NCBI GenBank assembly: GCA_038735125.1 | Contig: JAVYNU010000001.1 | Location: 467,672 to 531,671 of the forward strand | Origin: Ignisphaera sp. | GTDB lineage: Archaea > Thermoproteota > Thermoprotei_A > Sulfolobales > Ignisphaeraceae | Reading direction: 5' to 3' | Length of the DNA: 64,000 nucleotides | Shown here: piece by piece, positions 43,003 through 64,000 of the stretch | How positions within the stretch are numbered: the stretch's first letter is position 1 | How the letters are laid out: every line of letters starts with the position of its first letter | Notes under the pieces: generated by a model | The model's input: only the letters and a program-made list of their open reading frames with translations | Database searches by the model: none | What the model was told of the DNA's origin: nothing | Position numbers and translations under genes: made by a program

Positions 43003-44457
43003 GTGAAGAAGAGAACTATTTTAGTTATAGCAATAGTTATTATATTAGCAGTAATAGTTACGCCATTACTATATAATTATTGGCTGAAGCCCGGAAAGGT
43101 AGAGCAGGCACAAACCTCTGCACTTAAACCTGTTGCTCTAAAAATTATGACCACATGGAGTCAGTGGACCATTGATGATTTCAAGAGATATTTCTTTGCC
43201 GAAAGCGGTATGCCTAGAGCAGGTGTAGTATTACCTTCTGCTGCCATGGTGTTGAATATAACAAATATAACCTTTATATATGTTGAAGATCCTAAGATAT
43301 GGAAAAAGGCAGGTTTTAATGGGAGTATTGATGGTTTTGTAGGGCAAAACAGGTATAATATAACCACCTTGTGTTATGAAGGTGCCTTGCACCCAATAGA
43401 AAACCCTGAGATAATTAAGCTTGCTAAAAATGTTCCTGATGTATTCAAAGGTTATACAAAGGATGGTAAGCTGTGTTGGGTGGCGATGTATTTTGTTCCT
43501 TATACATGGCTTGTTAATTTAGATTATGCTAATAAAATGGGAATTGGGGTACCTAGCACATGGTCTGATTTGCTAAAACCGGAATATCTTTCTGTAATCA
43601 CCCGTGGAGGTTATCTTATGGCAGTCTATCCTGTCCCCAATAGGGCTCCCATGGTAAATAGTGTAAACACTATTCTTGCTAGATATGGCTGGGAGAAGGG
43701 CTGGGCTATAATAGCTGTTGTAATGGGTGCAGCATCAAGGTTTGAGACAAGTAGTAAAGCTGCAAGCGACTCTGTGTCCTTTGGAAGAGCTTTACTAACA
43801 ACTTTAGAGTTTAGCACAGCATATACAGCCTACTCTATGTTTCCAGATAAACTCAGTATAGAATTTCCTAAGAATGAAACAGGCTTCTGGTTCACACCAA
43901 TAGCCATAGCAGCTAATGTCAGTAAAGATGGTTTAGATGGCATGTATAGACTAATCAAATGGGTTTTAACAGATATGCAAGATAAGATGCTTCTTAATAG
44001 AACTGGTTGGAGCTTCAACATGCCTGTTCTAGGCTTCAATAATACAAATCCTAGAATTATATACAAGGAAAAAGCTGTACAAAACCTCTTTACACCCCCA
44101 ATAGACTTAGAGTTTGCATTAGGAGAGGCCTCTCCAGCTATAACACTTTATGCAGACATACTAGTATCTGATAGAGATGTTAGAAATATTCTCAAAGATA
44201 TTGTAACTCGTTTAATTGAAAAATATACATCAAATCAAATAAGTACTGAAGAATATTACCAGTATATTTGGATGATAGGGCAACCACCAAAATTTAAAGA
44301 CCCAGCAACAGGGGAAATAAAAGCATTCTCATTAGACGAAGCTCGCCAAATCAGTAATGCTATACGCAATGGTATAGTAAAGGAAGACAATTTGAGAACC
44401 GAATTGAAAAACGCTATAATTAGTAACCTTAATACAATCTTACAAGAATTAGGCTAA
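43003..44457 (+). CDS. ABC-type substrate-binding protein, family 1-like
   Basis: 484 residues from GTG 43003 (AGGTGA upstream). An N-terminal membrane helix ILVIAIVIILAVIVTPLLY is probably uncleaved and anchors the protein outside. The rest resembles type-I extracellular solute-binding proteins: two alpha/beta lobes with ANKMGIGVPSTWSDLLKPEY and a late helical region. No matching MalF/MalG-type permease is adjacent, so it is an orphan in this window. Ligand unknown; a sugar is plausible from context. It is followed by an independent promoter for the next binding protein. Confidence 0.75.
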   Translation: MKKRTILVIAIVIILAVIVTPLLYNYWLKPGKVEQAQTSALKPVALKIMTTWSQWTIDDFKRYFFAESGMPRAGVVLPSAAMVLNITNITFIYVEDPKIWKKAGFNGSIDGFVGQNRYNITTLCYEGALHPIENPEIIKLAKNVPDVFKGYTKDGKLCWVAMYFVPYTWLVNLDYANKMGIGVPSTWSDLLKPEYLSVITRGGYLMAVYPVPNRAPMVNSVNTILARYGWEKGWAIIAVVMGAASRFETSSKAASDSVSFGRALLTTLEFSTAYTAYSMFPDKLSIEFPKNETGFWFTPIAIAANVSKDGLDGMYRLIKWVLTDMQDKMLLNRTGWSFNMPVLGFNNTNPRIIYKEKAVQNLFTPPIDLEFALGEASPAITLYADILVSDRDVRNILKDIVTRLIEKYTSNQISTEEYYQYIWMIGQPPKFKDPATGEIKAFSLDEARQISNAIRNGIVKEDNLRTELKNAIISNLNTILQELG

Positions 44458-44493
44458 GAAGAAATAAAACTACATTTACAGTTTTAACGAAAA

Positions 44494-44504
44494 GATAAAT
44501 TTTT
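44494..44504 (+). promoter_or_regulatory. Promoter of the anchored binding protein
   Basis: ATAAATTTTTA about 55 bp before the TTG start at 44552, with GGAGGT (44533-44538) and AGGTGA (44540-44545) ribosome binding sites between. Confidence 0.45.
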
Positions 44505-44551
44505 AACGGCCGAATCTTTACTATCATTGTTAGGAGGTTAGGTGAAACAAC

Positions 44552-46777
44552 TTGGATATAAAACCAAAGGTAGTATATGCATTTGTTATCCTGATGATTT
44601 TAAGCACATTCTATATGATAATAGCTCAAACAGCATATGCCCAGCAATTGAGACGAAGCGAAACATTTATTGAAGGGGGTATCGGGGCACCAACATTAAA
44701 CTGGAATCCCTTTGCACCTGGAGGAACTGGAGGTATGGAGTGGGGCACATGGCACCTCCTATACCCACCATCAGCTCTTCAAAATACCTTAACACAAGAC
44801 TGGCTTCTCTTTCTCATAGATAGAATAGAATTTAATGGAAGTGACATTACCATAACTATTCATATAAGAGACGAGGCTAAATGGAGTGATGGAACCCCTA
44901 TAACAAGTAATGATTTAATAGAAGGATACAGATTGAGTAGGCAGATAGGTGCCGGTCTATGGGGTGATTGGTGTATATATAATTACGAGATAATCGATGA
45001 TAAAACACTAAAATACTATATAGCTAGGTCACCAGGTCAAGAACCCCCACCAAGAGAAGAGATCAGCCTTGACTGGCTTGGAGGGCCCATAGGATGTGTT
45101 CTATTTGTGAGGCCGGTGCCAGTGCATGTATTCAGACCTATTGTTGATCAGATGGGCGAGGGTATGAGGGTCAATTGGAGAAATGACGATCCTGCAAAAC
45201 AGGTTGTGGCAGGCCCATTCAAACTCTATTACGCGGATGCCACAACGGTTATATATGAGAGGATAGACAATTGGTGGGGTAAGGACATTTTCGGTCTTCC
45301 AAAATTCAAGTACCTCCAGTTTGTCTACTTCAAAGATGTGAACCTAGCCATATCAGCACTAGTTAATGGTGATGTTGATGGTTTCACAATACTTGGAGGC
45401 TTGTTTGTACCAAATGTCGAAGAGCTTAAAGCTAAGTATGGTATAAAGACATGGTCTGAAACCAAGCCATATTTCATACCATCATCCATCTACTGGTTGT
45501 ATCTAAACCTGAACAACCGTGTATTCAGCAAGGTTGAAGTAAGAAAAGCTATTGCATGGGCTATACCATGGAAAGATATTACCGAATATGGCTTACTTGG
45601 ATTGGTTGAACAAGCACCTGTTGTAGGTTTCGTAGCTGAAGGTGTTTACAAGGATTATGTTAATCATGATGCTTGTATGAAGTATTGGGGTAACCCAGAC
45701 TGTTTGCTACGACAAAACATTACAAAAGCAAAACAGTTGCTTGAGAAGGTGGGTGCAAAAGATATAGATAAAGATGGTATTTTAGAGCTCCCAGATGGAA
45801 CAAAAATGAAGTTCACAATATTAACGGTTGCAGGCGATGCTTTGCAAAACAATATAGCTTCTCTAATAGCAGATGCTCTAAAGGACATCGGCATTCAGGT
45901 TACTGTTCAAGCTGTTGACTATAGAGTATGGTGGCAGAACTTCCAAAATGGACAATTCGATGCGACATTGTGTTGGAGCGCAGGTGCATATGAGGTAGGA
46001 CACGTCAGAAACTCCTATGGAAATGCACTATACGCCTCATGGGGCAATATGGCAAAGTGGATTGGATACTCAAATGATAGACTCAATGCTCTATTTGAAG
46101 AGATGATGAGATCACTTATAGATCCAGAGAGAGAAAAAGAGTTAGCATATGCAATTCAGGAGATATTATTCGAAGATCTACCATCAATACCATTATATTA
46201 CACTCCAATGTTCTGGGTATACAACACTAAATACTGGGATGGGTGGCCAAACGCAGGGAGACCATGGTGGATCCCATCATGGTGGGGATCACTCCCATTA
46301 CTATTCTTCATAACGCCAGCCGGACAACCAATAGAAAAACCATGGTGGCTAAAGCCATATAATGAAGGAGGAGCCATAATATCTATGAGCATGTACAACG
46401 AATATCTCAGAAAATCGATATATTCAGGGGAAAACTTTGTTGTAAAATCAGGTAAGCCATCTGCCACAACAACATCTCCTGTCACAACTGCGACAACCAC
46501 TACTCCCCCAACAACATCCCCAGCCACAACAACACCTCCTGCAACATCTCCAAAACCAACACAAACACAGACCGTTGCCACACCAATACCAACACCAACA
46601 GTAACAATATCAAAAACAATTACAGCAACAATAACATCACTATCAACAATAATATCTGCCACAACATCAATATCGCCAACAACAGTAATAGTAACAGATT
46701 GGACAACAACAACAATACTAGCAGTAGTACTACTCATAGTCGGAATAGCCATCGGATGGATAATAAAAAGAAAATAA
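44552..46777 (+). CDS. Oligosaccharide/peptide-type substrate-binding protein with anchored stalk
   Basis: 741 residues from TTG 44552. A signal peptide (VVYAFVILMILSTFYMII) precedes a family 5 (DppA/OppA-type) binding domain; IHIRDEAKWSDGTPITSNDL and VRKAIAWAIPWKDI are its typical segments. A Thr/Pro-rich stalk (about 650-705) leads to a C-terminal span LAVVLLIVGIAIGWIIKRK, so the protein is tethered to the outer face. Many family 5 proteins of hyperthermophilic archaea bind cello- or xylo-oligosaccharides. Dpp-type permease genes follow after 190 bp. The last 107 bp are identical to the end of the GH12 gene. Confidence 0.9.
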   Translation: MDIKPKVVYAFVILMILSTFYMIIAQTAYAQQLRRSETFIEGGIGAPTLNWNPFAPGGTGGMEWGTWHLLYPPSALQNTLTQDWLLFLIDRIEFNGSDITITIHIRDEAKWSDGTPITSNDLIEGYRLSRQIGAGLWGDWCIYNYEIIDDKTLKYYIARSPGQEPPPREEISLDWLGGPIGCVLFVRPVPVHVFRPIVDQMGEGMRVNWRNDDPAKQVVAGPFKLYYADATTVIYERIDNWWGKDIFGLPKFKYLQFVYFKDVNLAISALVNGDVDGFTILGGLFVPNVEELKAKYGIKTWSETKPYFIPSSIYWLYLNLNNRVFSKVEVRKAIAWAIPWKDITEYGLLGLVEQAPVVGFVAEGVYKDYVNHDACMKYWGNPDCLLRQNITKAKQLLEKVGAKDIDKDGILELPDGTKMKFTILTVAGDALQNNIASLIADALKDIGIQVTVQAVDYRVWWQNFQNGQFDATLCWSAGAYEVGHVRNSYGNALYASWGNMAKWIGYSNDRLNALFEEMMRSLIDPEREKELAYAIQEILFEDLPSIPLYYTPMFWVYNTKYWDGWPNAGRPWWIPSWWGSLPLLFFITPAGQPIEKPWWLKPYNEGGAIISMSMYNEYLRKSIYSGENFVVKSGKPSATTTSPVTTATTTTPPTTSPATTTPPATSPKPTQTQTVATPIPTPTVTISKTITATITSLSTIISATTSISPTTVIVTDWTTTTILAVVLLIVGIAIGWIIKRK

Positions 46778-46806
46778 ATTATTAATTTATTTTTAAAACA
46801 AAATTC
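46671..46806 (+). repeat. 136-bp perfect direct repeat, copy 1
   Basis: Identical base for base to 50117-50252. It covers the coding sequence for the last 35 residues and stop of the binding protein (46671-46777) and 29 bp beyond, including a T-rich possible terminator. Confidence 0.95.
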
Positions 46807-46869
46807 TATTAGATTACCATATCATGCAACATATTCATATACTTATTTTTATTGATTGTATTTAACCAT

Positions 46870-46891
46870 TTATACATAAGCTTATGTATAA
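46870..46891. repeat. 22-bp perfect palindrome
   Basis: Centre TATACATAAG/CTTATGTATA, extended by one pair at each end. It lies between the binding protein and its permeases. It could be an operator or, in RNA, a hairpin that limits read-through into the permease genes. Confidence 0.75.
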
Positions 46892-46897
46892 GCTCAA

Positions 46898-46927
46898 TAG
46901 TTAAACTTATTATAGTTAAATTTATTA
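46898..46927. repeat. Two 15-bp tandem repeats
   Basis: TAGTTAAACTTATTA at 46898-46912 is followed directly by TAGTTAAATTTATTA, one base different. The TTAAA/TTTATTA content may serve as promoter for the permease at 46968. Confidence 0.6.
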
Positions 46928-46967
46928 GTTACTACAAAACTACTTTATCTTAACAAGGAGAGATTTG

Positions 46968-47996
46968 ATGGTTAGACTAGGCATAGATAAATCTTTAGTT
47001 ATATATTTAGCTAGAAGGATTGCTGTGCTTATTATTACATATTTCATAGCAGTAACAATAGTTTTTGTATTGCCTAGGTCAATTCCTGGTAATCCATTGG
47101 CTCTTAAAATGCAGCAAATTATTCAGCAGTGGATTGCAAATCCAACGTTGATTCCACAAGTCTATAAAGAGCTTCTTAATATATTTCAGTTTGATAAGCC
47201 TTGGTATATACAGTATGTAACTTTTTTGAGTAGGGCTTTTAGGGGAGATTTTGGTATATCTGTAGATATGTATCCGATGAAGGTTAATGATGTTATAGCT
47301 ATGGCCTTACCCTGGACTTTGGCTCTTGTAGTTCCTGCTGTTTTGGTGTCATGGTTTGTAGGAAATATTGTGGGTGCATATGTGGGGTATAAGAGGGGTG
47401 GGCTGTTAGAGAAGATTGTTGTTGGCTATTCACTCGTTGTATCAAGAATTCCATATTACTGGCTGGCCATGTTGTTGTTATTTGCTTTTGCATTTCAGTT
47501 GCGTTTATTCCCGACAGGAGGAATGTTCTCTGCTGGGATGAGACCTTCACTATCTATTCAGTTTATTACCGACTATCTATGGCATTATACGTTACCATTT
47601 TTATCAATATTCATTGTGGAGTCAGCGGGTTGGATGAGCTCTATGAGAATTTTAACGGCGGGCGAGCTGGGCTCAGATTATATAGCTTATGTGGATTCGC
47701 TCGGGGTTAAGGATAAGATTGTATTTAGATATGCTTACAGAAATTCGTTATTACCTCAAGTAACAGGGCTTGCACTAAGTCTTGGCTTTTCAATAACCGG
47801 AATACTAATAGTAGAGACAGTATTTAACTACCCAGGGCTGGGATACTTCCTATCAAGAGCTATAGGATCGCTCGACTATCCATTAATCCAAGGAATATTC
47901 TTAATAGTTATAGCAACAGTGTTTCTAGCGAATTTCATAGTAGACTTCATCTATGCTTTAATAGACCCTAGAATTAGACTGGGTGGAGGGGTATAA
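46968..47996 (+). CDS. Dpp/Opp-type ABC permease (DppB-like)
   Basis: 342 residues from ATG 46968 (AAGGAG seven bases upstream; TTG 46965 is in frame). The N-terminal span is followed by VFVLPRSIPGNPLALKMQQ, typical of DppB, and about six membrane helices. The coupling-helix region carries AGELGSDYIAYVDSLGVKDK and ends ETVFNYPGLGYFLSRAIGSLDYP. Translocates substrate delivered by the binding protein upstream. No ATPase gene is adjacent. Confidence 0.93.
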   Translation: MVRLGIDKSLVIYLARRIAVLIITYFIAVTIVFVLPRSIPGNPLALKMQQIIQQWIANPTLIPQVYKELLNIFQFDKPWYIQYVTFLSRAFRGDFGISVDMYPMKVNDVIAMALPWTLALVVPAVLVSWFVGNIVGAYVGYKRGGLLEKIVVGYSLVVSRIPYYWLAMLLLFAFAFQLRLFPTGGMFSAGMRPSLSIQFITDYLWHYTLPFLSIFIVESAGWMSSMRILTAGELGSDYIAYVDSLGVKDKIVFRYAYRNSLLPQVTGLALSLGFSITGILIVETVFNYPGLGYFLSRAIGSLDYPLIQGIFLIVIATVFLANFIVDFIYALIDPRIRLGGGV

Positions 47997-48000
47997 TGCA

Positions 48001-48852
48001 ATGAAAATCCCAGTAATAGCATACGCTGTTTTAACAAATAAGAGATTTGTAATAGGGATTACGGTGTTTACAATAATAGTGTTACTTGGTCTTGTAGGAC
48101 CCTTGGTTTATACTAGAGACCCATTCAAAAGAGGGCCTAGAAACATGCCACCATCTCTAGAATATCCTCTAGGCACAGATGGATTTGGAAGAGACGTATT
48201 TGCACAATTTTTATATGGCATAAGAACATCTCTCTTTGTAGGGCTTTTAGCAGCTCTAATAGCAACGCCAACAGGGCTAGTAATAGGCTCTGTTGCTGGA
48301 ATAAAAGGTGGTATAATAGATGAAATCCTCATGTCATTTACAAATATATTTTTGGCCATTCCGAATTGGTTGGTAGCCGTTCTTATAGCGTCTTACCTAC
48401 CGCCAGAGCAGCGAGGACCCCATGTAATAGCAACATTAATAGGCTTGTTTAGCTGGCCCTGGTTTGCAAGAGCTATTAGAGCACAGTTTATGAGCTTAAG
48501 GGAAAGGGAATTTATTTATCTATCTAGAATGGCTGGTTTTGGAGATATGAGAATAGTTTTTGAGGATCTTTTACCAAATATAGGACCATATATAGTGGGG
48601 GCATTTGCAGCATTCATGGCTGGTGGTATAGCAGGTGAGGCTGCCTTAGCATTGCTACTATCAACAGAAATGGCAAAGTATATCTCGCTTGGTATGATGC
48701 TTTACTGGGCAAGCTATTTTATAGCATATGTTACAGGCTCTTGGTGGCTATTTTTACCACCTGGTATAACAATAGTGGCGTTAACAACTTCTCTAACACT
48801 TATAGCAATAGGATTGGAAAATGTGTTTAATCCTAGGCTAAGAGAAACATAA
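48001..48852 (+). CDS. Dpp/Opp-type ABC permease (DppC-like)
   Basis: 283 residues from ATG 48001, with GGAGGGG nine bases upstream; GTG 47983 would overlap the previous gene. YPLGTDGFGRDVFAQFLYG and WPWFARAIRAQFMSLREREF are diagnostic of DppC, the latter being the ATPase-contacting loop. Six membrane helices. It pairs with the 46968 permease. Confidence 0.93.
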   Translation: MKIPVIAYAVLTNKRFVIGITVFTIIVLLGLVGPLVYTRDPFKRGPRNMPPSLEYPLGTDGFGRDVFAQFLYGIRTSLFVGLLAALIATPTGLVIGSVAGIKGGIIDEILMSFTNIFLAIPNWLVAVLIASYLPPEQRGPHVIATLIGLFSWPWFARAIRAQFMSLREREFIYLSRMAGFGDMRIVFEDLLPNIGPYIVGAFAAFMAGGIAGEAALALLLSTEMAKYISLGMMLYWASYFIAYVTGSWWLFLPPGITIVALTTSLTLIAIGLENVFNPRLRET

Positions 48853-48910
48853 ACTTTTAGAAATTTACAAAAATTACTTCTTATTCTTCGATATATTAAG
48901 ATAATAAAGA

Positions 48911-48918
48911 TTTATATA
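48911..48918 (+). promoter_or_regulatory. Promoter of the GH12 gene
   Basis: TTTATATA about 43 bp before ATG 48961, with AGGGTGG (48945-48951) as ribosome binding site. The gene therefore has its own promoter. Confidence 0.55.
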
Positions 48919-48960
48919 CTTCCACATAACTATGATTTTAACTTAGGGTGGTTAGACTAT

Positions 48961-50223
48961 ATGATAAAAACCAAGTCTGTTATCATAATGTTAGTTGCTA
49001 TAACACAACTAATCCTGCTATCTATGTGGGCAGCCAGCACATATGCTCAAGCAGGTGTCGCCACACTATTTCCACCTCCAACACCATTCAAGGGTGTGAG
49101 AACAGCTGGACCTGATGCACGGTGGACTAGCGTAGACTTTGATAACGTTCAATTCATGGCAAATCTATGGAATCTTGCATCCGGTGCTCAAGGTACTATG
49201 ACAATGAATTTCACGGGTCCATATGTAGAGGTGTTTGGAAACTTCACAAATCTTCCAAATCAAGTAACTGTACAGGGTGGTCCTGGTATTAGGTATGGTC
49301 AAGGTATATGGGGTGGTTTACCACCTGCTCATCCCCTATACAACATACCCAAGAAGGTAACCGCGCTTCCATATGTAATATTCTTTGCAAATTACACCAT
49401 ATATGAGAAAGAGTCTACACTTCCGCTAACAGCATCACTATACTTGTGGACAGTAAAGGCTCTTCGTAGCAGTGGCACCCAAGCTGGAGATGTTTTGGTC
49501 ATTGTTAGGGTCTATAGACATCCAGGCTGGCCCTTAACAGGAACTCCCCAGGCTAATGTAACAGCACCACTCATAATAAACAACACACTTGTATATGGAG
49601 ACTTCAAGGTGTTTACTGGAAATCTTGATAGATCGTCAAATACTCATACAACTGTGGTATTCGAGCTTACAGCTCCTGTAAATATAAGAAATGGCAGAGT
49701 TGGCATACCAATACAAGACTATATAGCTCTTGCTGCAAATATTCTAGAATCTCTAGCACCAAAAGTTTGGAGCAGAGGAATGGTCTTAAATAATACGTTC
49801 CAAATGATAGACTTTACAATTGAGTGGGCTTCTAATACTCAAGGAAAGGGAGTATTTAAATGGAGACTATACGAAATCTCATTCCTTGTTGGAACAAAAG
49901 CTGTAGAAAAGACAATTACAACTACAACAACAAAAACAATTACACAAGCCCAGACAACAACTACCACTAGTGTATCCACAGCTCTAGTAACTACTACCAC
50001 TACCAAAGAAGTGACAACAACATCAACATTAACAGTACCAACAACAATTACAGCAACAATACTATCAACAAAAACAGCTACAACAATATCTACAGTATTG
50101 TCAACAACGGTATCAGTATCGCCAACAACAGTAATAGTAACAGATTGGACAACAACAACAATACTAGCAGTAGTACTACTCATAGTCGGAATAGCCATCG
50201 GATGGATAATAAAAAGAAAATAA
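48961..50223 (+). CDS. GH12-family glucanase homologue, surface-anchored
   Basis: 420 residues: signal peptide (about 1-30), a jelly-roll domain (about 55-310), a Thr-rich stalk (about 315-385) and a C-terminal span. The domain aligns by eye with GH12 endoglucanases of hyperthermophilic archaea such as Pyrococcus EglA: QFMANLWNLASGAQGTMTM, GPGIRYGQGIWGG, TAPLIINNTLVYGDFKV and IPIQDYIALAANI correspond to family segments. The acid/base Glu appears as Glu288 in TIEWAS. The nucleophile position is Asp177 in GDVLVIV rather than Glu. It follows the permeases and shares the anchor of the binding protein. Substrate could be beta-glucan or xyloglucan; altered or lost activity is possible. Confidence 0.7.
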   Translation: MIKTKSVIIMLVAITQLILLSMWAASTYAQAGVATLFPPPTPFKGVRTAGPDARWTSVDFDNVQFMANLWNLASGAQGTMTMNFTGPYVEVFGNFTNLPNQVTVQGGPGIRYGQGIWGGLPPAHPLYNIPKKVTALPYVIFFANYTIYEKESTLPLTASLYLWTVKALRSSGTQAGDVLVIVRVYRHPGWPLTGTPQANVTAPLIINNTLVYGDFKVFTGNLDRSSNTHTTVVFELTAPVNIRNGRVGIPIQDYIALAANILESLAPKVWSRGMVLNNTFQMIDFTIEWASNTQGKGVFKWRLYEISFLVGTKAVEKTITTTTTKTITQAQTTTTTSVSTALVTTTTTKEVTTTSTLTVPTTITATILSTKTATTISTVLSTTVSVSPTTVIVTDWTTTTILAVVLLIVGIAIGWIIKRK

Positions 50224-50252
50224 ATTATTAATTTATTTTTAAAACAAAATTC
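50117..50252 (+). repeat. 136-bp perfect direct repeat, copy 2
   Basis: Identical to 46671-46806; covers the last 35 residues and stop of the GH12 homologue and 29 bp of its 3' flank. Outside the repeat the two genes differ at the nucleotide level. Confidence 0.95.
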
Positions 50253-50390
50253 AAAATAAAACCTTTTCTATACAATATATCTACTAATTTTCTAAGCCAC
50301 CTCCTTCCTCCACTACCTAAACCAAATGTTTTTGAGGTAAATTTAATTTTATATAGGTGAGCAAATAACACAGAATTTAGGTGGATGTAG

Positions 50391-51212
50391 ATGAAATTGG
50401 CTATAGTATCTGATGAAATAACACAAGATTTTGAGCATGCTCTTAAGGTCATAAAGGAGTTAGGTGTGGAGCTGGTTGAGATTAGATCGTTGTGGAATAA
50501 GAATATTATTGAGTTGACTGATACTGAATTAGATAATGTAAAGAGTTTGTTGAAGAAATATGGCTTGATGGTATCCCATGTAGCTTCCCCTGCCTTCAAG
50601 ATGTATATCGATGATGAGAAGAGCTTTGAGCAACATTTAATGTTTATACGTAGAGCTATTGAATTGACTAAGCTGTTTGATTTAAACTACACAAGGATCT
50701 TTACTTTTTGGTGGCAAGGAAGTCTAGAGCTATATCTAGATCTACTCATTGATAGAATCCAGCATGCCCTCGACATAGCTAAAGACGAGGGGGTCCACCT
50801 CATAATAGAGAACGAGTATTCATGTTTCGTTGGGACAGGCTTCGAAACCAAGATAGTACTGGAAAAAATTAAATCACCTTGGTTAAAGGTGTTGTGGGAT
50901 CCTGGCAATGCCTTTTTCGCAAGAGAAACACCCTACCCTATAGGATACAATTACGTTAAAGACCATATCATGTATATGCACCTAAAGGATGCTATTGTTG
51001 ATGAAAGGGGGAGATTTGTTTGGAGACCTATAGGCAAAGGCGCTATAGACTATTATGGGCAACTGAAGGAGATTGCTAAAAAAGATATAATTGTATCTCT
51101 TGAGACTCACTATACCCCACAAGGCGGAACAAAAGAGGAAGGCACAAGGGAATCGTTTAAAGGGCTTATGGATATAGTGAATAAGATAAAAATGGAGATG
51201 GATTTGACCTAG
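50391..51212 (+). CDS. Xylose-isomerase-like TIM barrel protein (sugar phosphate isomerase/epimerase family)
   Basis: 273 residues. Metal ligands of the AP endonuclease family 2 fold are visible: Glu in LIIENEYSC, Asp in VLWDPGNAF, His in MYMHLKDA and Glu in VSLETHYTP. Probable sugar isomerase, epimerase or keto-sugar enzyme in the cytoplasm acting on imported uronates or rhamnose; the substrate is not evident. The promoter TTTTATATA is at 50347-50355 and AGGTGGA precedes the ATG. It converges with the FG-GAP gene, 4 bp overlapping. Confidence 0.85.
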   Translation: MKLAIVSDEITQDFEHALKVIKELGVELVEIRSLWNKNIIELTDTELDNVKSLLKKYGLMVSHVASPAFKMYIDDEKSFEQHLMFIRRAIELTKLFDLNYTRIFTFWWQGSLELYLDLLIDRIQHALDIAKDEGVHLIIENEYSCFVGTGFETKIVLEKIKSPWLKVLWDPGNAFFARETPYPIGYNYVKDHIMYMHLKDAIVDERGRFVWRPIGKGAIDYYGQLKEIAKKDIIVSLETHYTPQGGTKEEGTRESFKGLMDIVNKIKMEMDLT

Positions 51213-53140: not shown

Positions 53141-53202
53141 CCTTTAACTCCTTACATATTAGTTATAAAATCAGATTGGAAGGTATTTCTCAATAAAGGA
53201 GA

Positions 53203-55082: not shown

Positions 55083-57608
55083 CTACTTTTTTCTTAGGAG
55101 CAGCGACCCTACCCCCAAACCCGCACCAAGTAGTACTATTCCTATAACTGCTGTTGTTGTCCACTCTACTTCCCTTATTGTTGTTAGGCTGGCAATTGTT
55201 GATGTAATTGTTTTCTCGCTAACAATTGTAGTTGGGCTTGCCACAGTCGCTAACACTGTTGTTTGTTTTGGTGTAGTGGTTGTAACTGTTTTTTCGCTAG
55301 TGATTGTGGTGCTAATGGTTGTAGAGACTGTTATAGTTGCTGGAGAAACAATGCTAGTTCTATAAGTTGTTGCTATTGTTGTTGGCACTATCGCTGTAGT
55401 TACAACAGTTTTTGGTGAAAGACTGGTAGTCAAAGTCGAGACAACAGTCACCGGCGACACCACAGTCATAGTAACAGTCGTTATTATTGATGGAAGTAAT
55501 GGGAACATGGGAAGGGTATATGTAACAGCAGGAATGGTATATGTAGTAGGTTTGAACTCAGGATATTTAATGTTAGGTTTTGGTATTGGAAACTTTGTTT
55601 CCGTGCCTAGGTAGAAGGACAATTGGGTTGACTGCATATAGCCATGGGTCTCTAGTGCTACGCTTAATCTGTATTGCGGATCCTGCATTAATGTATATAT
55701 TCTGTAGTTTGTGGGCTCTGTTGATATATATATTCTCATCTCTTTTTTATTTGCTGTAACTACTATGAATTCTTCCCTCCAATCACCAATTATATCGCCA
55801 TAGGCTAGAGGAGCGTTTCTAGAACCTGGAATAACATTGGTTACATTAAATATGTGTCTCCATACCCTGTTATTCCAATCGTATTTGCTGACACTAAAGC
55901 TATTTGGTGTTACAACGTCTAGGTGTTCTCTAAGCAGATCTCCATCCCACCAAATGTTGAAGTTTGTTAGGTTCATTCTCGGCCCTACTATATAACCTGA
56001 TGCATTAAATAGATTACCTGGGGCAGCTGGTCTTGTAGCCCAGCATTCCATACCTGGATACCTTGGATCTATATCTCCACAGCTTCCTCTACCAATGTCT
56101 TGATCACTTATTCCAGGACCTGAATAAGCCCATATAAGTCTGCCTGTAGCAGCTTCTACAAGAGCTACACCAGGTCTCCAATACAATGTGACTTCTCCGC
56201 TAACAGGCTTGCATACAACCTGATTGCTCACAACGGTGCAATTCTTACCATTTTCTACAAATGTGTATTTGCATCCGGCAGAACATTGTCCTGGTCTTTC
56301 CTGGACATAGAATATCTCTAGCCCTGGTCTTGAAGGATCTATATCTGCCACATGGAACCTATCACCGTGAAGCAGTCCCGAGTCCCAAAGCAGCTTACCA
56401 TCATCGTCAATTGCTATCGCCCCATATACTATCTCATCCTTTCCATCCCCATCGATATCAGCAACCCTCATTTGCTGGAAGCCTTTGCTTAGACCCTGAT
56501 ATGGGTAATAGAAAGTCCACAGCTTCTCCAGTTTTCCATTTCTCCAGTTCCACGCCTCTACATAGATGTGTGTGTAGATACCCCTAGCAATAATTAACGA
56601 TGGATGTTCTCCATCAAGGTAGGCGACACCAATCATATTTCTACTAGCTCTATTGCCATAGTTGTCACCCCAATAGGTCCAGTTGTACATGTACAACCAT
56701 TCGCCAAATGCTAGAGGATAACCTGTTGCACCATCAATTATAGCAAAGTATAGTGGGTCTTTAGTTTGTCTGCCAAGATAGTCAGCATATTTCATAGTAC
56801 CATCGTTATTTATATCTCCAACGACTATCACTTTACCATCGCGTGTATAGAATGTTGCATTCTCGCCTATCATGGCGGCTACTTCGGCCCTTCCATCGCC
56901 ATCGAGATCGTATACAACAAATGGTGAATAGTATATACCTGGTCTTATGTTTGGCCCTAGGTCAACTCTCCATAGAAATGTTCCATCAAGTTTGTATGCC
57001 TCAAGCTTATATGTTTCTGTAGGTACAGTGGTTTGCGATGGATCTATATCTTGGTCACCTCTTTTAACAACTACTTCGTACTCGCCATCACCGTCTAAAT
57101 CGCCTATGCCTGCAAGTCTAGCTCCTTGAACAGTGTCATTAAAGTTCAAGGCATCTTGTCTTAAAGGAATAGATATATAGTTGCCTATGGGGGTATTGGG
57201 GCGCAGAACATAGGGTTTCGAAAACCCTACCTCAACACCATCCACAACACTTGCTACATAATATGTTACAGGCTGTGAGAAATCGAAGTTCGTTAGATTA
57301 TCAATGAACCATGTCAGATATAGAGGCTTACTATTAACTTTAACCAGAGGCCCATTCCCTATACGCCTATATACATTAAACATTATGTTGTCAGGATCTG
57401 TAGCAAGAAGTCTCCAACTCAACCAAACAGAGTTATTAGAGATTCTAAGCGCTACAAGACCCCTGCCAAGCTTCTCCATAACCCTACCTTTGAGACCACC
57501 TTGACCAGCAACAGCTCTATTAGGTGCATATAATGCTTGTAGCAAGGATAGTACCAGTAACAGTGTTATGGATGATACCATCAATATTCTATATATTGTT
57601 CTATTCAT
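55083..57608 (-). CDS. PL11 rhamnogalacturonan lyase, surface-anchored
   Basis: 841 residues from ATG 57608 (GGGGTG upstream). A signal peptide (MNRTIYRILMVSSITLLLVL) precedes the PL11 N-terminal beta domain (VWLSWRLLATDPDNIMFNVY) and an eight-bladed-type propeller with FG-GAP calcium loops such as GIGDLDGDGEYEVV, VYDLDGDGRAEVA and VADIDGDGKDEIV. GDIIGDWREEFIV closes the catalytic domain at about residue 650. A Thr/Ser-rich stalk of about 130 residues and the span AVIGIVLLGAGLGVGSLLL follow. It cleaves the rhamnogalacturonan I backbone outside the cell. ATG 57632 would add eight residues ahead of the signal peptide. Confidence 0.92.
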   Translation of the reverse strand: MNRTIYRILMVSSITLLLVLSLLQALYAPNRAVAGQGGLKGRVMEKLGRGLVALRISNNSVWLSWRLLATDPDNIMFNVYRRIGNGPLVKVNSKPLYLTWFIDNLTNFDFSQPVTYYVASVVDGVEVGFSKPYVLRPNTPIGNYISIPLRQDALNFNDTVQGARLAGIGDLDGDGEYEVVVKRGDQDIDPSQTTVPTETYKLEAYKLDGTFLWRVDLGPNIRPGIYYSPFVVYDLDGDGRAEVAAMIGENATFYTRDGKVIVVGDINNDGTMKYADYLGRQTKDPLYFAIIDGATGYPLAFGEWLYMYNWTYWGDNYGNRASRNMIGVAYLDGEHPSLIIARGIYTHIYVEAWNWRNGKLEKLWTFYYPYQGLSKGFQQMRVADIDGDGKDEIVYGAIAIDDDGKLLWDSGLLHGDRFHVADIDPSRPGLEIFYVQERPGQCSAGCKYTFVENGKNCTVVSNQVVCKPVSGEVTLYWRPGVALVEAATGRLIWAYSGPGISDQDIGRGSCGDIDPRYPGMECWATRPAAPGNLFNASGYIVGPRMNLTNFNIWWDGDLLREHLDVVTPNSFSVSKYDWNNRVWRHIFNVTNVIPGSRNAPLAYGDIIGDWREEFIVVTANKKEMRIYISTEPTNYRIYTLMQDPQYRLSVALETHGYMQSTQLSFYLGTETKFPIPKPNIKYPEFKPTTYTIPAVTYTLPMFPLLPSIITTVTMTVVSPVTVVSTLTTSLSPKTVVTTAIVPTTIATTYRTSIVSPATITVSTTISTTITSEKTVTTTTPKQTTVLATVASPTTIVSEKTITSTIASLTTIREVEWTTTAVIGIVLLGAGLGVGSLLLRKK

Positions 57609-58208
57609 ATCTTGCACCCCGCAGATAACCATTAATTAAAGTTTAAAAATATTCTTGAAGAAAAGGCTTGCAGTTCTCATAATTAAATATTAAATAAAGA
57701 AGTGTTTAATTCAATCAAATTTAAGCATCATCTATACAATTAATATACCTAGTAGAGCGTGGAACTATATTCAAAGTCTGTAGTTAAGTTACTGATGTAG
57801 TGACAAAGAACTCATAACTATACAGACTATAAACAGCAGGAATGTATAGGTTATTAACTGGCTCATTGAGAAACCTATAGCCTACTCCTAAGCACATAAC
57901 GTCAATGTAAACTATTATTGTTATCATTTTAATTGCCGTAGATCAAACTCATAATTATCGTAGCTTTTTAGGTTTGTATCTCAAACACAAAGTTACCAAG
58001 TCGATTCATCTAATAGTTATCATCTTATCAGGAACTATAGGTAGTCCTGACAGCAAAGCCCTTATAATGAAAATCTCAATGTCCTGAAGAAATGTCCTAA
58101 TCCTATTACATCAAAGTTAACAAAAAGTGACTCTTATCCTCCTAAAGTCTGTTGTTTTCAAATAAAAACACAAAAATTTATTTTGTGTTCCACGATCCCA
58201 GATGATCT
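57609..58208. other. Divergent intergenic region PL11/phosphodiesterase
   Basis: About 600 bp, AT-rich, without a convincing ORF. It must contain the leftward PL11 promoter, probably the TTTAAACTTTAATTAA-type stretch near 57632-57650, and the rightward promoter overlapped by the palindrome at 58167-58189. Confidence 0.5.
58167..58189 (+). promoter_or_regulatory. Palindrome over a promoter
   Basis: AACACAAAA and TTTTGTGTT, perfect 9-bp arms around ATTTA. The AT-rich centre is the best TATA candidate for the gene starting at 58209, about 30 bp away, so a protein bound here should block transcription. The AACACAAA half-site recurs at the GH28 promoter. Confidence 0.55.
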
Positions 58209-60077
58209 GTGGTGTGTTGGTTGAATAGGAAGCTTATTTTAATCGGAATAGACTCTATGATTCTGGATTTTGTAGAAAAATTTGCTAAAGAAGGTCTTAT
58301 GCCCAACATTCAGAGACTGATGATGGAGGGTTCCTACGGTTACGCTCTACCATCCATGCCAACCTATACCCCTACAAATTGGACCACGATTGCAACTGGA
58401 ACTGATTCAACTATTCATAGAGTTTTCGAATGGGTTTTCACATCTAATGCGAGAAATGCTGAAAGTATTTGGGAAACTGCTTCAAGATATGGAAAAAAGG
58501 TTGTTCTAATTAGATTCCCCAGTTCTTTCCCTCCTAATAATACTAATGTGGTTGCTATAGGCGATGGCGCTCCCCATAATGGTTTGGGAGTTCTTGAAGA
58601 AAGCAGGCTCTATTCATCTAAGAAAATATATCGTTATTCAGGTGGTCTGCATGGCTCCTTTGAGTCGGTATTGATTAGGTGGAGTGTATTGGATTCTTGG
58701 GAATTGTTCCAGGGAACCACATGTAATGATTTGAAGCCTCTTGAGACCTCTTTAACTATTTCTTTAAAAAATAAAAAACCTGCCACAATTTATTTACTGT
58801 TATATTCAAGTAACTGTAGATCATACGATACTCTTTCAATGGCTTTCGATAAAGACTTCTCTAAAAGTATAGCAACTCTACACGAAGGGGAATGGAGTGA
58901 TTTCATAGTAATACCGTTTGAGGATCTGGATGGTGGTGTCACTAAGGGGGTTTGCAGGTTTAAACTGTTGAATAGTGACCCCGAGAACTTTCTCCTTTAT
59001 AGAACGCAGATCCATGCTGTGGAGGGCTTCATTTATCCTAGCGATGTCGAGAAAAAGCTTATTAATGAGGTGGGCTATTTCCTTGATAATCCATCAAGGT
59101 TATGTTTAGCGCATAAATGCTTCGATACTTTCTTTGAGGAGCTTGAGCACCATTTGGATTGGATGTATAGAGCTGCAGAGTATTTAAAAAAAGAGTTGGA
59201 CTGGGATATGCTTTTTGTTCAAGTTCATGCGATAGACTATGTCCAGCATGAGTTATGGTATTGCATAGATCCTGTTGCCCATGGATACATAGATGATTCA
59301 CATTGTAGAGAAGTTTTCAAGAAAGCATATTCAAAGATAGACAATTTTGTTGGTAAAATTCTAACTCTAGCAGATGATGATACTCTGGTGGTGTTAGTAT
59401 CGGATCACGGGCATATAGCAAGGGTGAAGGTAGTTTTTCTAGTTGATTATCTAGTTGATAAAGGTTTCATCACCATAAAAGATGAGGGCTCCATTGATAC
59501 ATCAAAAAGTATTGTTAGAGAAATAAAATATGATGGACTTATACTCAATACTATATGGAGGTATAGTGATGGCATTATAAGAAGTGAAGATGAGTATAGA
59601 GAAATAGTTGAAGAGTTGATAGACGTGTTACTTTCGCTTAAGGACAGAGAAAAACATGTGTTCTATCTTGTTATACCTGGATGGGAGGCACAAGTGCTAG
59701 GCTATAGAGAGAAAGACCTAGATATCCTGTATTCTCCGCGACCGGGATATGCAATTGTTAGGGGTCTTTCTAAAAGATATCAATTAAAGAAAGAGGGCTA
59801 CATCGGCTTACCTGATCCAGAGCATGGTATATGGGGAGGGGCCTCAAGCATTCACGAGGGGCTTCCATCAGCTAAACTTTCCATTGGAACCAACAAAGCT
59901 ATGTTTGTGATAAAAGGTCCTAGGGTTAAGAAAGGCCTTAAAGTTGATTACGGTGTATGGTTGAGGGATATAGCACCAACGATTTGCGCACTTCTTGGCC
60001 TCCCGATACCTAGGCAATCAACTGGTAGAGTTCTATACGAGATTATAGATGGGGTGATACATATTAGTATCATGTGA
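58209..60077 (+). CDS. Alkaline-phosphatase-superfamily phosphodiesterase with inserted domain
   Basis: 622 residues from GTG 58209. Metal and nucleophile sites of the type I phosphodiesterase/nucleotide pyrophosphatase group are visible: Asp15 in IGIDSM, Thr54 in YTPTNWTTIATG, the D-x3-H of HAIDYVQHELW and the DH of LVSDHGH; a late His lies in IHEGLP. Residues about 155-275 form an unrelated beta-rich insertion. No signal peptide. Substrate unknown; sulfate or phosphate ester hydrolysis on sugars is possible. The next gene follows after 45 bp. Confidence 0.82.
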   Translation: MVCWLNRKLILIGIDSMILDFVEKFAKEGLMPNIQRLMMEGSYGYALPSMPTYTPTNWTTIATGTDSTIHRVFEWVFTSNARNAESIWETASRYGKKVVLIRFPSSFPPNNTNVVAIGDGAPHNGLGVLEESRLYSSKKIYRYSGGLHGSFESVLIRWSVLDSWELFQGTTCNDLKPLETSLTISLKNKKPATIYLLLYSSNCRSYDTLSMAFDKDFSKSIATLHEGEWSDFIVIPFEDLDGGVTKGVCRFKLLNSDPENFLLYRTQIHAVEGFIYPSDVEKKLINEVGYFLDNPSRLCLAHKCFDTFFEELEHHLDWMYRAAEYLKKELDWDMLFVQVHAIDYVQHELWYCIDPVAHGYIDDSHCREVFKKAYSKIDNFVGKILTLADDDTLVVLVSDHGHIARVKVVFLVDYLVDKGFITIKDEGSIDTSKSIVREIKYDGLILNTIWRYSDGIIRSEDEYREIVEELIDVLLSLKDREKHVFYLVIPGWEAQVLGYREKDLDILYSPRPGYAIVRGLSKRYQLKKEGYIGLPDPEHGIWGGASSIHEGLPSAKLSIGTNKAMFVIKGPRVKKGLKVDYGVWLRDIAPTICALLGLPIPRQSTGRVLYEIIDGVIHISIM

Positions 60078-60122
60078 ATATTAAGGTTATGTGCTAGATA
60101 ATGTTACTAGAGGTGTTCATTC

Positions 60123-61328
60123 ATGGCGAAAATAACACCCTTACTCATTCCCTACGAAGTTGAAGTGGTTGAGGATATAAGGGGAGGTGTAGGAACCCCA
60201 AATCTAATACATGACGTCAAGAAAAATGTTTACTGGCTTCTATTTACTGGCTGGAGGGATCCTAGAGGAAGGTTGAGAGAAGTATTCGTAGTTGAAGTAG
60301 ATAAGAACCTAATTCCGCAGTGGAATACATTAAAGAAAATATTGAGATATGATTTCCCTATTGATGCTTCCTATACACATAATACCGTAAGAGGATTCTA
60401 CAACGCTACCAAAGAAGAATTTATTGTAACGACATCCCATGGTTCAAAAATATTCCTCTATACCTTTGATAGCGAGTGGAATCTGAAAAAATACAAAGAG
60501 ATACTAGACTTTGGAGCAGTAAGGGATTACGGCTTCCCCATAAAACCAATAGGTGTGTATACAAAGCATCGTGATGCTATTGCTGTTACAAGGAATAGCG
60601 AGAGAAAAGAGGAGCTGGAGGTTTACATGGTAAAAAGCATTGATAACGTAGATGAGGCAAAAGCTGAAAACCTTGGGGTCGTAGCTAGGTGGGGCTCTAA
60701 CGATGTATTAGACTTCACCTTGCTCCCAAGATTCCAAATATTTGCAGAACAAAACAGCTGCTCTAAATGGACTCTTCATACCTTCATAGGGCCAACACTA
60801 GATGAAATACCATCAGATGTGTTCTTTGGGAACTTCATCACTATGCAAACATCTATGACGCACTTGCTTGAAATCGATGACAATATGGTTCAGCTAGGAC
60901 ACCCACACTACACGACACTACCAGATGGTGCTCCCAAGCTTCTTGTTGCTGCTTTCAGGGATACCTGGAGCTTAAGACATGATACAGGTAGATGGGGGTA
61001 CACACACGAAATATGGTGTATACTTCTAGATAAGAACCTATTTGATCCTAAAGCATACTACTCTTTTAAACTTAAGCTCTTCTCTAAGGACATGAATAAG
61101 TACATATATGTTCCCCCCGCTGAGAAACTCACCATATACAGTAAGATACCCCTAGATAAAATCAAAGTCTACGAATCCCCAATACCAGGAGAAGACTTAG
61201 TTGCAGATCCGTTAAGAAGGAATGGCAAGTTGATACTTGAAGATCCACCACAATGGATTAAACTAGAGATATCAACTGCTTCTAACAATGTAGCAGAAGA
61301 ACCGCTATACCTACTCGCTACCATATAG
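60123..61328 (+). CDS. Unknown protein, probable beta-propeller
   Basis: 401 residues, cytoplasmic, mostly beta strands in repeating blocks (KKNVYWLLFTGWRDPRGRLR, KEEFIVTTSHGSKIFLYTF, KLLVAAFRDTW). The layout recalls the five-bladed propellers of GH43/GH130-type enzymes, but I cannot assign a family or catalytic acids. It lies in a plus-strand run phosphodiesterase-this-DppB-DppC-DppD, so it is likely part of the sugar catabolic set. Confidence 0.6.
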   Translation: MAKITPLLIPYEVEVVEDIRGGVGTPNLIHDVKKNVYWLLFTGWRDPRGRLREVFVVEVDKNLIPQWNTLKKILRYDFPIDASYTHNTVRGFYNATKEEFIVTTSHGSKIFLYTFDSEWNLKKYKEILDFGAVRDYGFPIKPIGVYTKHRDAIAVTRNSERKEELEVYMVKSIDNVDEAKAENLGVVARWGSNDVLDFTLLPRFQIFAEQNSCSKWTLHTFIGPTLDEIPSDVFFGNFITMQTSMTHLLEIDDNMVQLGHPHYTTLPDGAPKLLVAAFRDTWSLRHDTGRWGYTHEIWCILLDKNLFDPKAYYSFKLKLFSKDMNKYIYVPPAEKLTIYSKIPLDKIKVYESPIPGEDLVADPLRRNGKLILEDPPQWIKLEISTASNNVAEEPLYLLATI

Positions 61329-61335
61329 AATCATT

Positions 61336-61351
61336 AAACTTTATTAAGTTT
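61336..61351. repeat. Short inverted repeat before the second ABC operon
   Basis: AAACTT-TATT-AAGTTT, directly after the stop of the unknown gene and about 60 bp before the permease start. May be a hairpin or operator; CTTTATTAA inside could be a promoter. Confidence 0.4.
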
Positions 61352-61408
61352 CGCAACAATTAGAAATTACGGCAATGTAATAATCACTCCCTATGGTGTT
61401 GCCAGCCT

Positions 61409-62413
61409 ATGAGTACGTGGGGTTGGATTGCAAAGAATGTTTTGATGGCTATTGCTATGTGGTTTACAGCTATCGTCTTGATATCTTTTGTGGTTTTCGC
61501 TACACCTGGAAACCCGCTAGAGATAATGATTACACAGTTAGTGAGCCAAGGGTATCCATACTTTGAGGCTCTAACCATAGTTAGATCGTATTTTGGTGTA
61601 GACATTGAGCAGCCTATTCATGTTAAAGTAGCGAACTATTTGATGAACTTGATAAAAGGTGATTTAGGAAAATCTATATCGTATGGGGTCTCTGTTTCTG
61701 CTTTAATAGCTAATACCTTACCTTGGTCAGTATTCTTTGTATCATATGCTCTCTTAATAACTATGGCTATCGGTATAACTCTCGGGTTAATCTTAGCATA
61801 TTATAGAGGGAGAGCAGTTATTTCCAAGCTTATGACATTTATACTCAGCATTCTAAATGCTGTACCTAACTGGGTTATGGGCGTAATACTGTTTGTGTAT
61901 ATAGGGTATATGTGGAAGCTTCTACCTTATATGGGACCCTATGACGCTGCACATGTAAAACCGGGACCTAGCATAGAATTCATAGCAAGTGTACTTTACT
62001 ATTACCTCTTACCAGTTATAGCATTAGTCCTAACCTCTCTACCCAGATGGGCCTGGAGTGTAAGCTCTATAGCTATAATGACGCTGAAAGATGATTACAT
62101 TACCTATGCGAAAGCTAGAGGTTTAACAACACGAAGAATACTGTTTAACTATGTTGCAAGAAATTCGCTTTTGCCAACGTATGCAACAATAAGTGTGACC
62201 TTTGCTCAGTTGCTGATAGGAACAGTATGGTTAGAGAATCTATATTCAAAACCAGGTATTGGGACTCTACTTTCTGTTGCGATTGGCAACAGAGATTACC
62301 CAGTAATCTTAGGTGTATATGCAACATTTGTAGGGATACTGGTGTTAGCAAATCTCTTAACTGATATGACCTATGGCTTCATAGATCCTAGAGCAAGAAT
62401 TAGAACAGATTAA
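61409..62413 (+). CDS. Dpp/Opp-type ABC permease (DppB-like), second set
   Basis: 334 residues with about six membrane helices. VVFATPGNPLEIMITQLVSQG near the first span, YITYAKARGLTTRRILFNYV as ATPase-contact loop and ENLYSKPGIGTLLSVAIGNRDYP mark DppB. The binding protein for this set is not in the window unless it is the 44552 protein. Confidence 0.92.
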   Translation: MSTWGWIAKNVLMAIAMWFTAIVLISFVVFATPGNPLEIMITQLVSQGYPYFEALTIVRSYFGVDIEQPIHVKVANYLMNLIKGDLGKSISYGVSVSALIANTLPWSVFFVSYALLITMAIGITLGLILAYYRGRAVISKLMTFILSILNAVPNWVMGVILFVYIGYMWKLLPYMGPYDAAHVKPGPSIEFIASVLYYYLLPVIALVLTSLPRWAWSVSSIAIMTLKDDYITYAKARGLTTRRILFNYVARNSLLPTYATISVTFAQLLIGTVWLENLYSKPGIGTLLSVAIGNRDYPVILGVYATFVGILVLANLLTDMTYGFIDPRARIRTD

Positions 62414-62423
62414 GGGCGATAAT

Positions 62424-63356
62424 ATGAAGCTGAATAACTTGGTTAACCCAAAGGCATCGAGATCGCTAAAGTTTGTGTTAAAAATATTCTTCAAAGACTT
62501 CACTACGGGGTTTAGCTTTATCGTGTTATTCCTTTACATACTAGCAACTATTCTAGTATACCTTAATGTTATTCCCCCATTACCACCACCAAGAGGATAC
62601 CTCTACATGTATAAGTCGCCATCATTAGAGAACTTTCCATGGTATATCCTAGGAACAGAGGGTACTGGGAGACCTTTATTTCTATGCCTAGTAAGAGCAG
62701 CTGCGCCAACGCTTACAGTAGCATTCCTATCAGCTCTGATCACTACTATCGTGGGAATGTTGATGGGTCTTATAGCGGGGTACCTTGGAGGTAAAATCGA
62801 TGGGGCTTTGAATTTCTTGATAACACTAGCTCTAACCATACCCTCGACATTTCTAGCTTTAATAATTTCAGCACTATTACCTGCGAACCTTAGAGGTAAC
62901 CTACTCGTTGGAGCTGGCGTTCTAAGTATAACAGCTTGGGGTACTATAGCTAGAGGTGTAAGAGCACAAGTTGTATCGCTGAAACGTAGGGAGTTCATAG
63001 AGGTGGCAAAAGCATTGGGCTTTGGAGCAAGATACATAATATTCAAAGAAATTATGCGATACATACTGCCCTATATTACAATGCAGTTCGTGTTAGCGAT
63101 GGTTAACGGAATATATGGATACACTTCGTTATCATTCCTCGGTATAATCCCTGTTAGTGCCGATAACTGGGGTTATCAGATAAACTTAGCTACATCGGTT
63201 GGAGGTCTATATGCCCAGAAACTTTCAGTACAACTAGGTCTTTGGGGACCTATTATCGCTATCGTTTTGATTCAGTTTAGTTTAGCTAATGTAGCTCGAG
63301 CTTTTGAAGAAGTATTCAACCCAGCCCTAAGAACCAAGATAGAAGAAGGTGAATAA
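62424..63356 (+). CDS. Dpp/Opp-type ABC permease (DppC-like), second set
   Basis: 310 residues. WYILGTEGTGRPLFLCLVRA and the contact loop TIARGVRAQVVSLKRREFIE match DppC; about six membrane helices. It starts 10 bp after DppB and stops 1 bp before the DppD start, so the three are cotranscribed. Confidence 0.93.
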   Translation: MKLNNLVNPKASRSLKFVLKIFFKDFTTGFSFIVLFLYILATILVYLNVIPPLPPPRGYLYMYKSPSLENFPWYILGTEGTGRPLFLCLVRAAAPTLTVAFLSALITTIVGMLMGLIAGYLGGKIDGALNFLITLALTIPSTFLALIISALLPANLRGNLLVGAGVLSITAWGTIARGVRAQVVSLKRREFIEVAKALGFGARYIIFKEIMRYILPYITMQFVLAMVNGIYGYTSLSFLGIIPVSADNWGYQINLATSVGGLYAQKLSVQLGLWGPIIAIVLIQFSLANVARAFEEVFNPALRTKIEEGE

Positions 63357-63357
63357 A

Positions 63358-64000
63358 TTGAGTTACCTAATGAGGGTACAGAATCTATCTGTCTATTACT
63401 CGAAAATTAGAGTACTCAACAACATCAACCTAGATGTAATACAAGGAGAGACTATAGCCTTAGTTGGTGAAAGTGGTTGTGGTAAAACAACCCTAGCTAA
63501 TGTTATCCTAAGAACATTACCAGAGATAGCGTATGTAGATAATAACTCGAAGGTGCTGTACAAGCTTGGAAATAACTATGTAGAAATACTACATCTTCCA
63601 CACATGCTGTTTAGAACACAAATCCGATGGAAGGAGATTTCTATGGTTCCTCAAAGTGCTTTGAACGCTCTTAATCCTACTATAAAGATAAGGGATCATT
63701 TTATAGAGACTGCGAAGGCTCATGGTTTTAGTGATAAGGGTGAGGTTTTGGAGAGGGCTAGGTTTTTGTTGGAGTCTGTCAAGCTTGATGCTGATAGGGT
63801 TCTTAATATGTATCCTATTGAGCTTTCTGGCGGCATGAAGCAGAGAACTTTAATTGCTTTAGCATTATTTTTAAATCCTAAATTTGTTATTCTTGATGAG
63901 CCTACAACAGCTTTGGATGTGTTGACGCAAAGAGAAATAATATTGTTGCTGAAGGATCTAAAGAATAAAATGGGTTTGACCTATATGCTTATAACCCACG
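63358..64000 (+). CDS. Dpp/Opp-type ABC ATPase (DppD-like), partial
   Basis: TTG 63358 opens a frame that runs off the window after 214 codons. Walker A GESGCGKTT is at 37-45, the Q-loop in VPQSALNALNP, the signature LSGGMKQR and Walker B FVILDEPT follow, and the H-loop ITH is the last visible residue group. It powers the permease pair upstream and could also serve the pair at 46968-48852, which lacks an ATPase. Confidence 0.93.
   Translation, partial: MSYLMRVQNLSVYYSKIRVLNNINLDVIQGETIALVGESGCGKTTLANVILRTLPEIAYVDNNSKVLYKLGNNYVEILHLPHMLFRTQIRWKEISMVPQSALNALNPTIKIRDHFIETAKAHGFSDKGEVLERARFLLESVKLDADRVLNMYPIELSGGMKQRTLIALALFLNPKFVILDEPTTALDVLTQREIILLLKDLKNKMGLTYMLITH

Follow-up and report, generated by a model that had tools for sequence, protein, structure and literature searches.

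A putative two-locus pectin utilization system in one Ignisphaera species

Among the members of its class that were searched, one Ignisphaera species probably carries a utilization system for homogalacturonan and rhamnogalacturonan I (RG-I) that is divided between two loci, and its predicted gene content makes pectin use by this archaeon likely. The first locus lies in the window, which is the whole 64,000-nucleotide stretch analyzed here (C1:467672-531671), and the second on another contig of the same 1.81-Mb genome of 12 contigs (C2:212503-246628). The identity of the genes, their location signals and catalytic motifs, their rarity, and the linkage between the loci are established. An earlier note on this DNA had proposed a pectin/glucan utilization island in a crenarchaeon, and our analysis favors the pectin part of that proposal, for RG-I and polygalacturonate. 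The genome encodes an anchored lyase and cytosolic exo-enzymes, and the gene set is exceptional in the class: PL11 and PL1 were each over cut-off in 1/229 genomes, in both cases this one (G000), and GH28 in 2/229, namely this genome and G016, from another genus of the same family.

Pectin genes in the window and on a second contig

The pectin block opens with a cytosolic AP_endonuc_2/xylose-isomerase-like TIM barrel (50391..51212, + strand; Pfam E 2.9e-30). It is followed on the minus strand by an FG-GAP beta-propeller protein with neither signal nor anchor (51209..53140; RGL11_C E 1.6e-16), which matched YesX and YesW by phmmer (E 7e-08) and, judged from these matches, is a diverged PL11 relative. 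A modest AlphaFold2 model of this protein (pLDDT 53) also gave YesW/YesX as the top Foldseek hits, but PL11 rows were present in the folding alignment, which makes this support weak. The GH28 (53203..54594, - strand; Pfam E 1.2e-46) is exo-polygalacturonase-like and, having neither signal nor anchor, is predicted to be cytosolic. Its closest solved relative is the exo-polygalacturonase PDB 3jur (E 3e-65), and it belongs to the family by its domain and by its NTD, DD, GHG, and RIK motifs, all of which are kept. The PL11 rhamnogalacturonan lyase (55083..57632, - strand; RGL11_C E 5e-128) carries RGI_lyase and RGL11_C domains above the Pfam cut-off over its full length and matches YesW in the PDB at E 6e-123. 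Its N terminus bears a hydrophobic signal and its C terminus a transmembrane (TM) anchor preceded by a Thr-rich stalk, so it is predicted to be secreted and C-terminally anchored.

The remaining genes of the block lie on the plus strand. They encode a phosphodiesterase/phosphatase-fold protein (58209..60077; Pfam Phosphodiest E 7.5e-29), a 401-aa protein without an assigned family (60123..61328; no Pfam match), and a second transporter, with DppB-like (61409..62413) and DppC-like (62424..63356) permeases recognized by their similarity to the first Dpp permease pair and a DppD-like ATPase (63349..64000) that continues past the window end. The locus extends about 8 kb further. Genes for DppF, for another SBP_bac_5 binding protein (the third), and for a kinase of the PfkB family come first, and its last member encodes a GH42/GH5-like protein whose N terminus carries a TM segment; a MoxR operon follows. 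Relatives of the 401-aa protein are 43-45% identical and belong to another family of the order; full-length relatives were seen only in five genomes of that family, in unrelated contexts where these were read.

Every gene that the earlier note had listed at 43003-64000 is an intact ORF close to where it had been placed, with families mostly named correctly. The probable downstream enzymes it had mentioned are likewise present, as the TIM barrel, the phosphodiesterase-fold protein, and the 401-aa protein, and signal and anchor predictions agree with its view that surface and cytoplasmic members complement each other, with an anchored PL11 lyase and a cytosolic exo-enzyme. All pectin genes are intact ORFs with a single terminal stop. 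Their GC content (0.37-0.42, compared with 0.39 in the surroundings) matches the host and is no evidence on transfer of the block. The block is not a contaminant, because the assembly is 0.53% contaminated (and 99.9% complete) and the genes sit on a 587-kb contig, beside others that share as much as 94% identity with their counterparts in congeners. Absences reported below for this genome and its relatives rest on searches of the genome collection.

The active site of the window PL11 deviates from that of its bacterial relatives. The substrate-binding residues of reference are R467/K549/Y610 of Bo3128, which we take to correspond to R452/K535/Y595 of YesW. At these columns, bacterial PL11s have Arg in 78/80, Lys in 73/80, and Tyr in 76/80; the window copy has Arg, Arg, and Tyr, and a second, cytosolic copy encoded on C2 has Gln, an alignment-dependent column, and Tyr. 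The carboxylate-binding Lys is Arg both in the window PL11 and in G050, a genome of Thermoproteota outside the class. All four Thermoproteota PL11s have Arg at or beside this position (alignment-dependent in the cytosolic copy), unlike most bacterial PL11s. Of the calcium ligands His, His, Asp, and Glu, the first is replaced by Gln in the window copy, the other three being retained there, and the cytosolic copy keeps 4/4.

The second locus combines a paralogous SBP-SBP-DppBC cassette and a full Dpp system with two lyases, the cytosolic PL11 and an anchored PL1. It also encodes a GH106, a PaeX-like esterase, an alpha/beta hydrolase, a DHDPS-family aldolase, and a pair of Gfo/Idh dehydrogenases; two of its enzymes are esterases. 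The closest NCBIfam model to the GH106 is the BT4145 alpha-L-rhamnosidase, with a score far below cut-off. The PL1 falls within its family by Pfam (Pectate_lyase_4, E 1.3e-21) and by its HxK and RxPRxR motifs, which are kept. In the PDB it matches VexL better than the pectate lyases (3zsc, 5e-22). The substrate of VexL is the Vi antigen. Between the binding-protein cassette and the lyase genes of this locus are three glycosyltransferase-like genes (L015 6448-10125), named by sequence alone.

We tie the two loci together because their PL11s are sisters (SH-aLRT 99), one anchored and the other cytosolic, because the window PL11 and the PL1 of the second locus have a common type of C-terminal anchor (the binding proteins carry another type), and because the GH28 orthologue in G016 (71% identical to that of the window) adjoins an orthologue of a Gfo/Idh gene of the second locus (75%). 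In haloarchaea, PL11 likewise has a Dpp transporter or a Gfo/Idh gene as its neighbor, in line with the proposed system. A search for a regulatory motif common to the upstream regions of both loci gave top shared 11-mers that reached no more regions than shuffles, and two G+C-richer candidates looked chance-like on inspection. Elsewhere, contig C4 (L186 9868-13192) carries a KduI/IolB-family protein beside TIM-barrel-like and glycerate-kinase-like genes, a group with a possible role in uronate or inositol metabolism; the KduI/IolB-family protein is not clearly part of the system.

A neighboring cassette conserved in the genus

Upstream of the pectin block, on the plus strand, lies a cassette of five genes (43003-50223). 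It encodes a membrane-tethered SBP_bac_6/8 binding protein (43003..44457; Pfam E 9e-07), an anchored Dpp-type SBP_bac_5 binding protein (44552..46777; Pfam E 8.6e-46), DppB-like (46965..47996; Pfam E 8.7e-35) and DppC-like (47983..48852; Pfam E 6.6e-19) permeases, both also assigned by synteny, and an anchored GH12-like protein (48961..50223). The same five genes occur in the same order in the congener G005 (70-85% identity) and in I. aggregans (G009; 56-73%), and in part in the congener G003. The SBP_bac_6/8 protein, for example, is 76% identical in G005 and 57% in I. aggregans, and the SBP_bac_5 protein has orthologues in both. Genome searches found none of PL11, PL1, and GH28 in G005, G003, or I. 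aggregans. The cassette is a genus-conserved Ignisphaera module, and since it occurs in Ignisphaera without PL11, GH28, or PL1, its two binding proteins and permease pair are not pectin-specific. In G005, only 3.5 kb separate the cassette from a GH42-like gene; in our genome the distance between the two is 19.4 kb, with the pectin genes in between. A GH3 gene is near the cassette in I. aggregans. The cassette is probably an older neighboring module for gluco- or manno-oligosaccharides, outside the pectin system.

The GH12-like protein gave no Pfam match and was recognized by phmmer through Pyrococcus furiosus EglA (E 1e-11). Two catalytic Glu residues are described for an archaeal GH12 enzyme (PMC12265866). 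In the alignment, the acid/base Glu is kept and the nucleophile column holds Leu in 4/4 Ignisphaera orthologues, with Glu in the other aligned homologues. Because Leu replaces the catalytic nucleophile, this protein most likely serves in binding rather than catalysis, as a conserved pseudo-enzyme beside a Dpp transporter. A 227-nt direct repeat, 84% identical (window 46580-46806 and 50026-50252), covers the stalk and TM anchor at the C terminus of both the SBP_bac_5 and the GH12-like protein, and an anchor module seems to have been exchanged between these neighboring genes.

Proposed pathway and its alternatives

We infer the substrate, the transport specificity, and the cytosolic digestion and sugar-feeding steps of the following scheme. 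Outside the cell, two anchored lyases would act by beta-elimination, PL1 of the second locus on polygalacturonate and PL11 of the window on the backbone of RG-I. The oligosaccharides would then be taken up through Dpp ABC transporters (from 61409 onward in the window, and two sets in the second locus) and their anchored binding proteins of Dpp type. In the cytosol, the second PL11 could shorten RG oligomers, with GH28 taking galacturonate off chain ends, GH106 removing rhamnose, and the esterases removing acyl groups. In the last step, the sugars may be channeled into pyruvate and triose by the TIM barrel together with the PfkB kinase, the DHDPS-family aldolase, and both Gfo/Idh dehydrogenases.

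The scheme is weakest where the unsaturated uronyl residue expected from both lyases has to be removed, because no GH88/GH105 was found: PF07470 was absent genome-wide in a search in which positive controls were detected. Possible candidates for this step are the second PL11, GH28, GH106, and the Gfo/Idh proteins acting with the TIM barrel. A specific version of the last option, in which an archaeal PL11 subclade with Arg for Lys feeds a redox elimination of unsaturated ends by a Gfo/Idh 3-dehydrogenase and the AP_endonuc_2 TIM barrel, is quite unlikely. Hints in its direction are the missing GH88/GH105, the GH28-Gfo/Idh pair of G016, both members of which have orthologues in our genome, a PL11 that adjoins Gfo/Idh in Halocatena, and weak matches of Gfo/Idh proteins, far below cut-off, to the glycoside/disaccharide 3-dehydrogenase models BT_2158/BT_2159. 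Both the lack of a GH88/GH105 step and the changed PL11 active site lead to specific predictions that can be checked.

Several observations speak against a pectin system, namely the lack of GH88/GH105, the deviations in the PL11 active site, a PL1 nearest to VexL, and the failure of haloarchaea with PL1, PL11, GH28, and further such genes to grow on pectin, polygalacturonate, or RG (PMC9726719). The latter three might instead indicate that the lyases and exo-enzymes target another acidic polysaccharide, such as an archaeal or microbial exopolysaccharide or an S-layer glycan, rather than plant pectin; glycosyltransferase-like genes within the second locus would suit such a substrate. We nevertheless regard this reading as unlikely: PL11, GH28, GH106, and a PaeX-like esterase together fit the make-up of RG-I, the PL1 retains its pectate-lyase motifs, and the Lys replaced in the window PL11, common as it is in bacteria, gives way to Arg, which preserves charge. 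The same substitutions invite the suggestion that the genes were recently acquired and are decaying or unused; loss of function would then explain the missing GH88/GH105 and the two changes to Gln, one at a calcium-binding His of the window PL11 and one at the substrate-binding Arg of its cytosolic sister. The intact ORFs, the host-like composition, and the duplication of PL11 into anchored and cytosolic forms, which suggests use, make this the least probable explanation of those considered.

The earlier note had also read the whole 21 kb as one island for pectin and glucan; on this reading the island would be co-regulated, and GH12 would cut beta-glucan outside the cell. The cassette does adjoin the pectin genes and the GH12 fold is real, yet the nucleophile is missing in every orthologue, the cassette stands without pectin genes in three relatives and close to a GH42-like gene in G005, and no common upstream motif was found. 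A single island is therefore very unlikely, and the glucan part of the claim has to be given up. We retain the two-locus pectin system, with the cassette outside it.

Distribution and comparison with known systems

In addition to its absence from most of the class, GH28 was found in 0/10 Ignisphaera congeners in a protein search. Among 398 genomes of the phylum, convincing PL11s occurred only in our genome and G050. A weak match in G397 turned out to be protease-like, with a domain of fibronectin type, and one in G206, with the same weak pattern, is likely false. In a quick tree the four Thermoproteota PL11s formed one clade (100%) and haloarchaeal PL11s sat among Bacillota; the best fit is that PL11 entered archaea independently two or more times. 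No PL11 relatives were found in viral contigs, and a virus-borne origin was dropped. The two PL11 lyases of G050 are secreted and have C-terminal TM segments (L026 8911-10908, L027 8208-10373); no other pectin genes were recognized near them.

The literature we searched held no description of such a pectin system in Ignisphaera, most subscription papers lying outside that search, and it agrees with the earlier note that pectin backbone degradation is little described in hyperthermophiles. Archaea have been described as almost devoid of known polysaccharide lyases, and efforts at enriching users of pectin were unsuccessful (PMC9726719). Reports of pectin enzymes in haloarchaeal genomes, PL11 among them, go back to 2011 (PMC3102087). 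The notion that the locus is unusual for archaea stands for its class and needs limiting more widely, as PL11 beside Dpp-type ABC genes is already known from haloarchaea (PMC3102087). The novelty lies in the host group, in the arrangement over two loci, in a PL11 clade of its own, and in the lack of GH88/GH105; annotated PL11-Dpp loci in haloarchaea are not new. Archaeal growth on pectin is hardly documented, and Ignisphaera, if it uses pectin, offers a testable case. I. aggregans grows at 85-98 C (PMC3035270), which suggests that, if our reading is true, plant litter would feed archaea in near-boiling springs. The organism would also be a source of heat-stable PL11, PL1, and GH28 enzymes.

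Among characterized bacteria, the RG-I system of Bacillus subtilis (yes/yte; YesW, YesX, YteR) likewise has two PL11 enzymes, which are the closest solved ones, but its GH105, YteR, lacks an Ignisphaera counterpart. We presume that the transporter differs too, being Dpp-type in Ignisphaera and of another type in B. subtilis. The RG-I polysaccharide utilization locus (PUL) of Bacteroides thetaiotaomicron (BT4145-BT4183) has GH28, GH106, and PL11 relatives in common with Ignisphaera, which would import by ABC transporters and has no SusC/SusD among its annotated genes. A Pfam scan of both loci found neither SusC nor SusD, so they are not PULs of the Bacteroidota type. Thermotoga maritima is, like Ignisphaera, a hyperthermophile with PL1 and an exo-acting GH28, and we take it to be the source of the pectate trisaccharide-lyase PDB 3zsc and the exo-poly-alpha-D-galacturonosidase PDB 3jur. 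In contrast to T. maritima, the Ignisphaera PL1 is C-terminally anchored, and PL1 and GH28 are in separate loci along with PL11.

The nearest archaeal parallels are plasmid pectin/RG loci of Haloterrigena turkmenica (pHTUR01, Htur_3890/3891) and Halomontanus rarus TS33, in which PL11 similarly has a Dpp-type ABC transporter as its neighbor, along with two binding proteins and further glycoside hydrolases; in H. turkmenica a PL11 pair adjoins the transporter. A haloarchaeal pectin island also includes a diverged PL11 relative resembling the FG-GAP protein of the window. Haloarchaeal PL11s differ in being nested in Bacillota and keeping the Lys, whereas those of Ignisphaera form a separate clade, and H. 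turkmenica has a GH105 (PMC3102087) that our genome lacks. The pectin island on the Halomontanus rarus plasmid (L187) includes two oligogalacturonate-lyase genes, PL11, GH78, GH43, GH95, and an RG acetylesterase, and beside this acetylesterase we noted an unannotated PL11-like protein.
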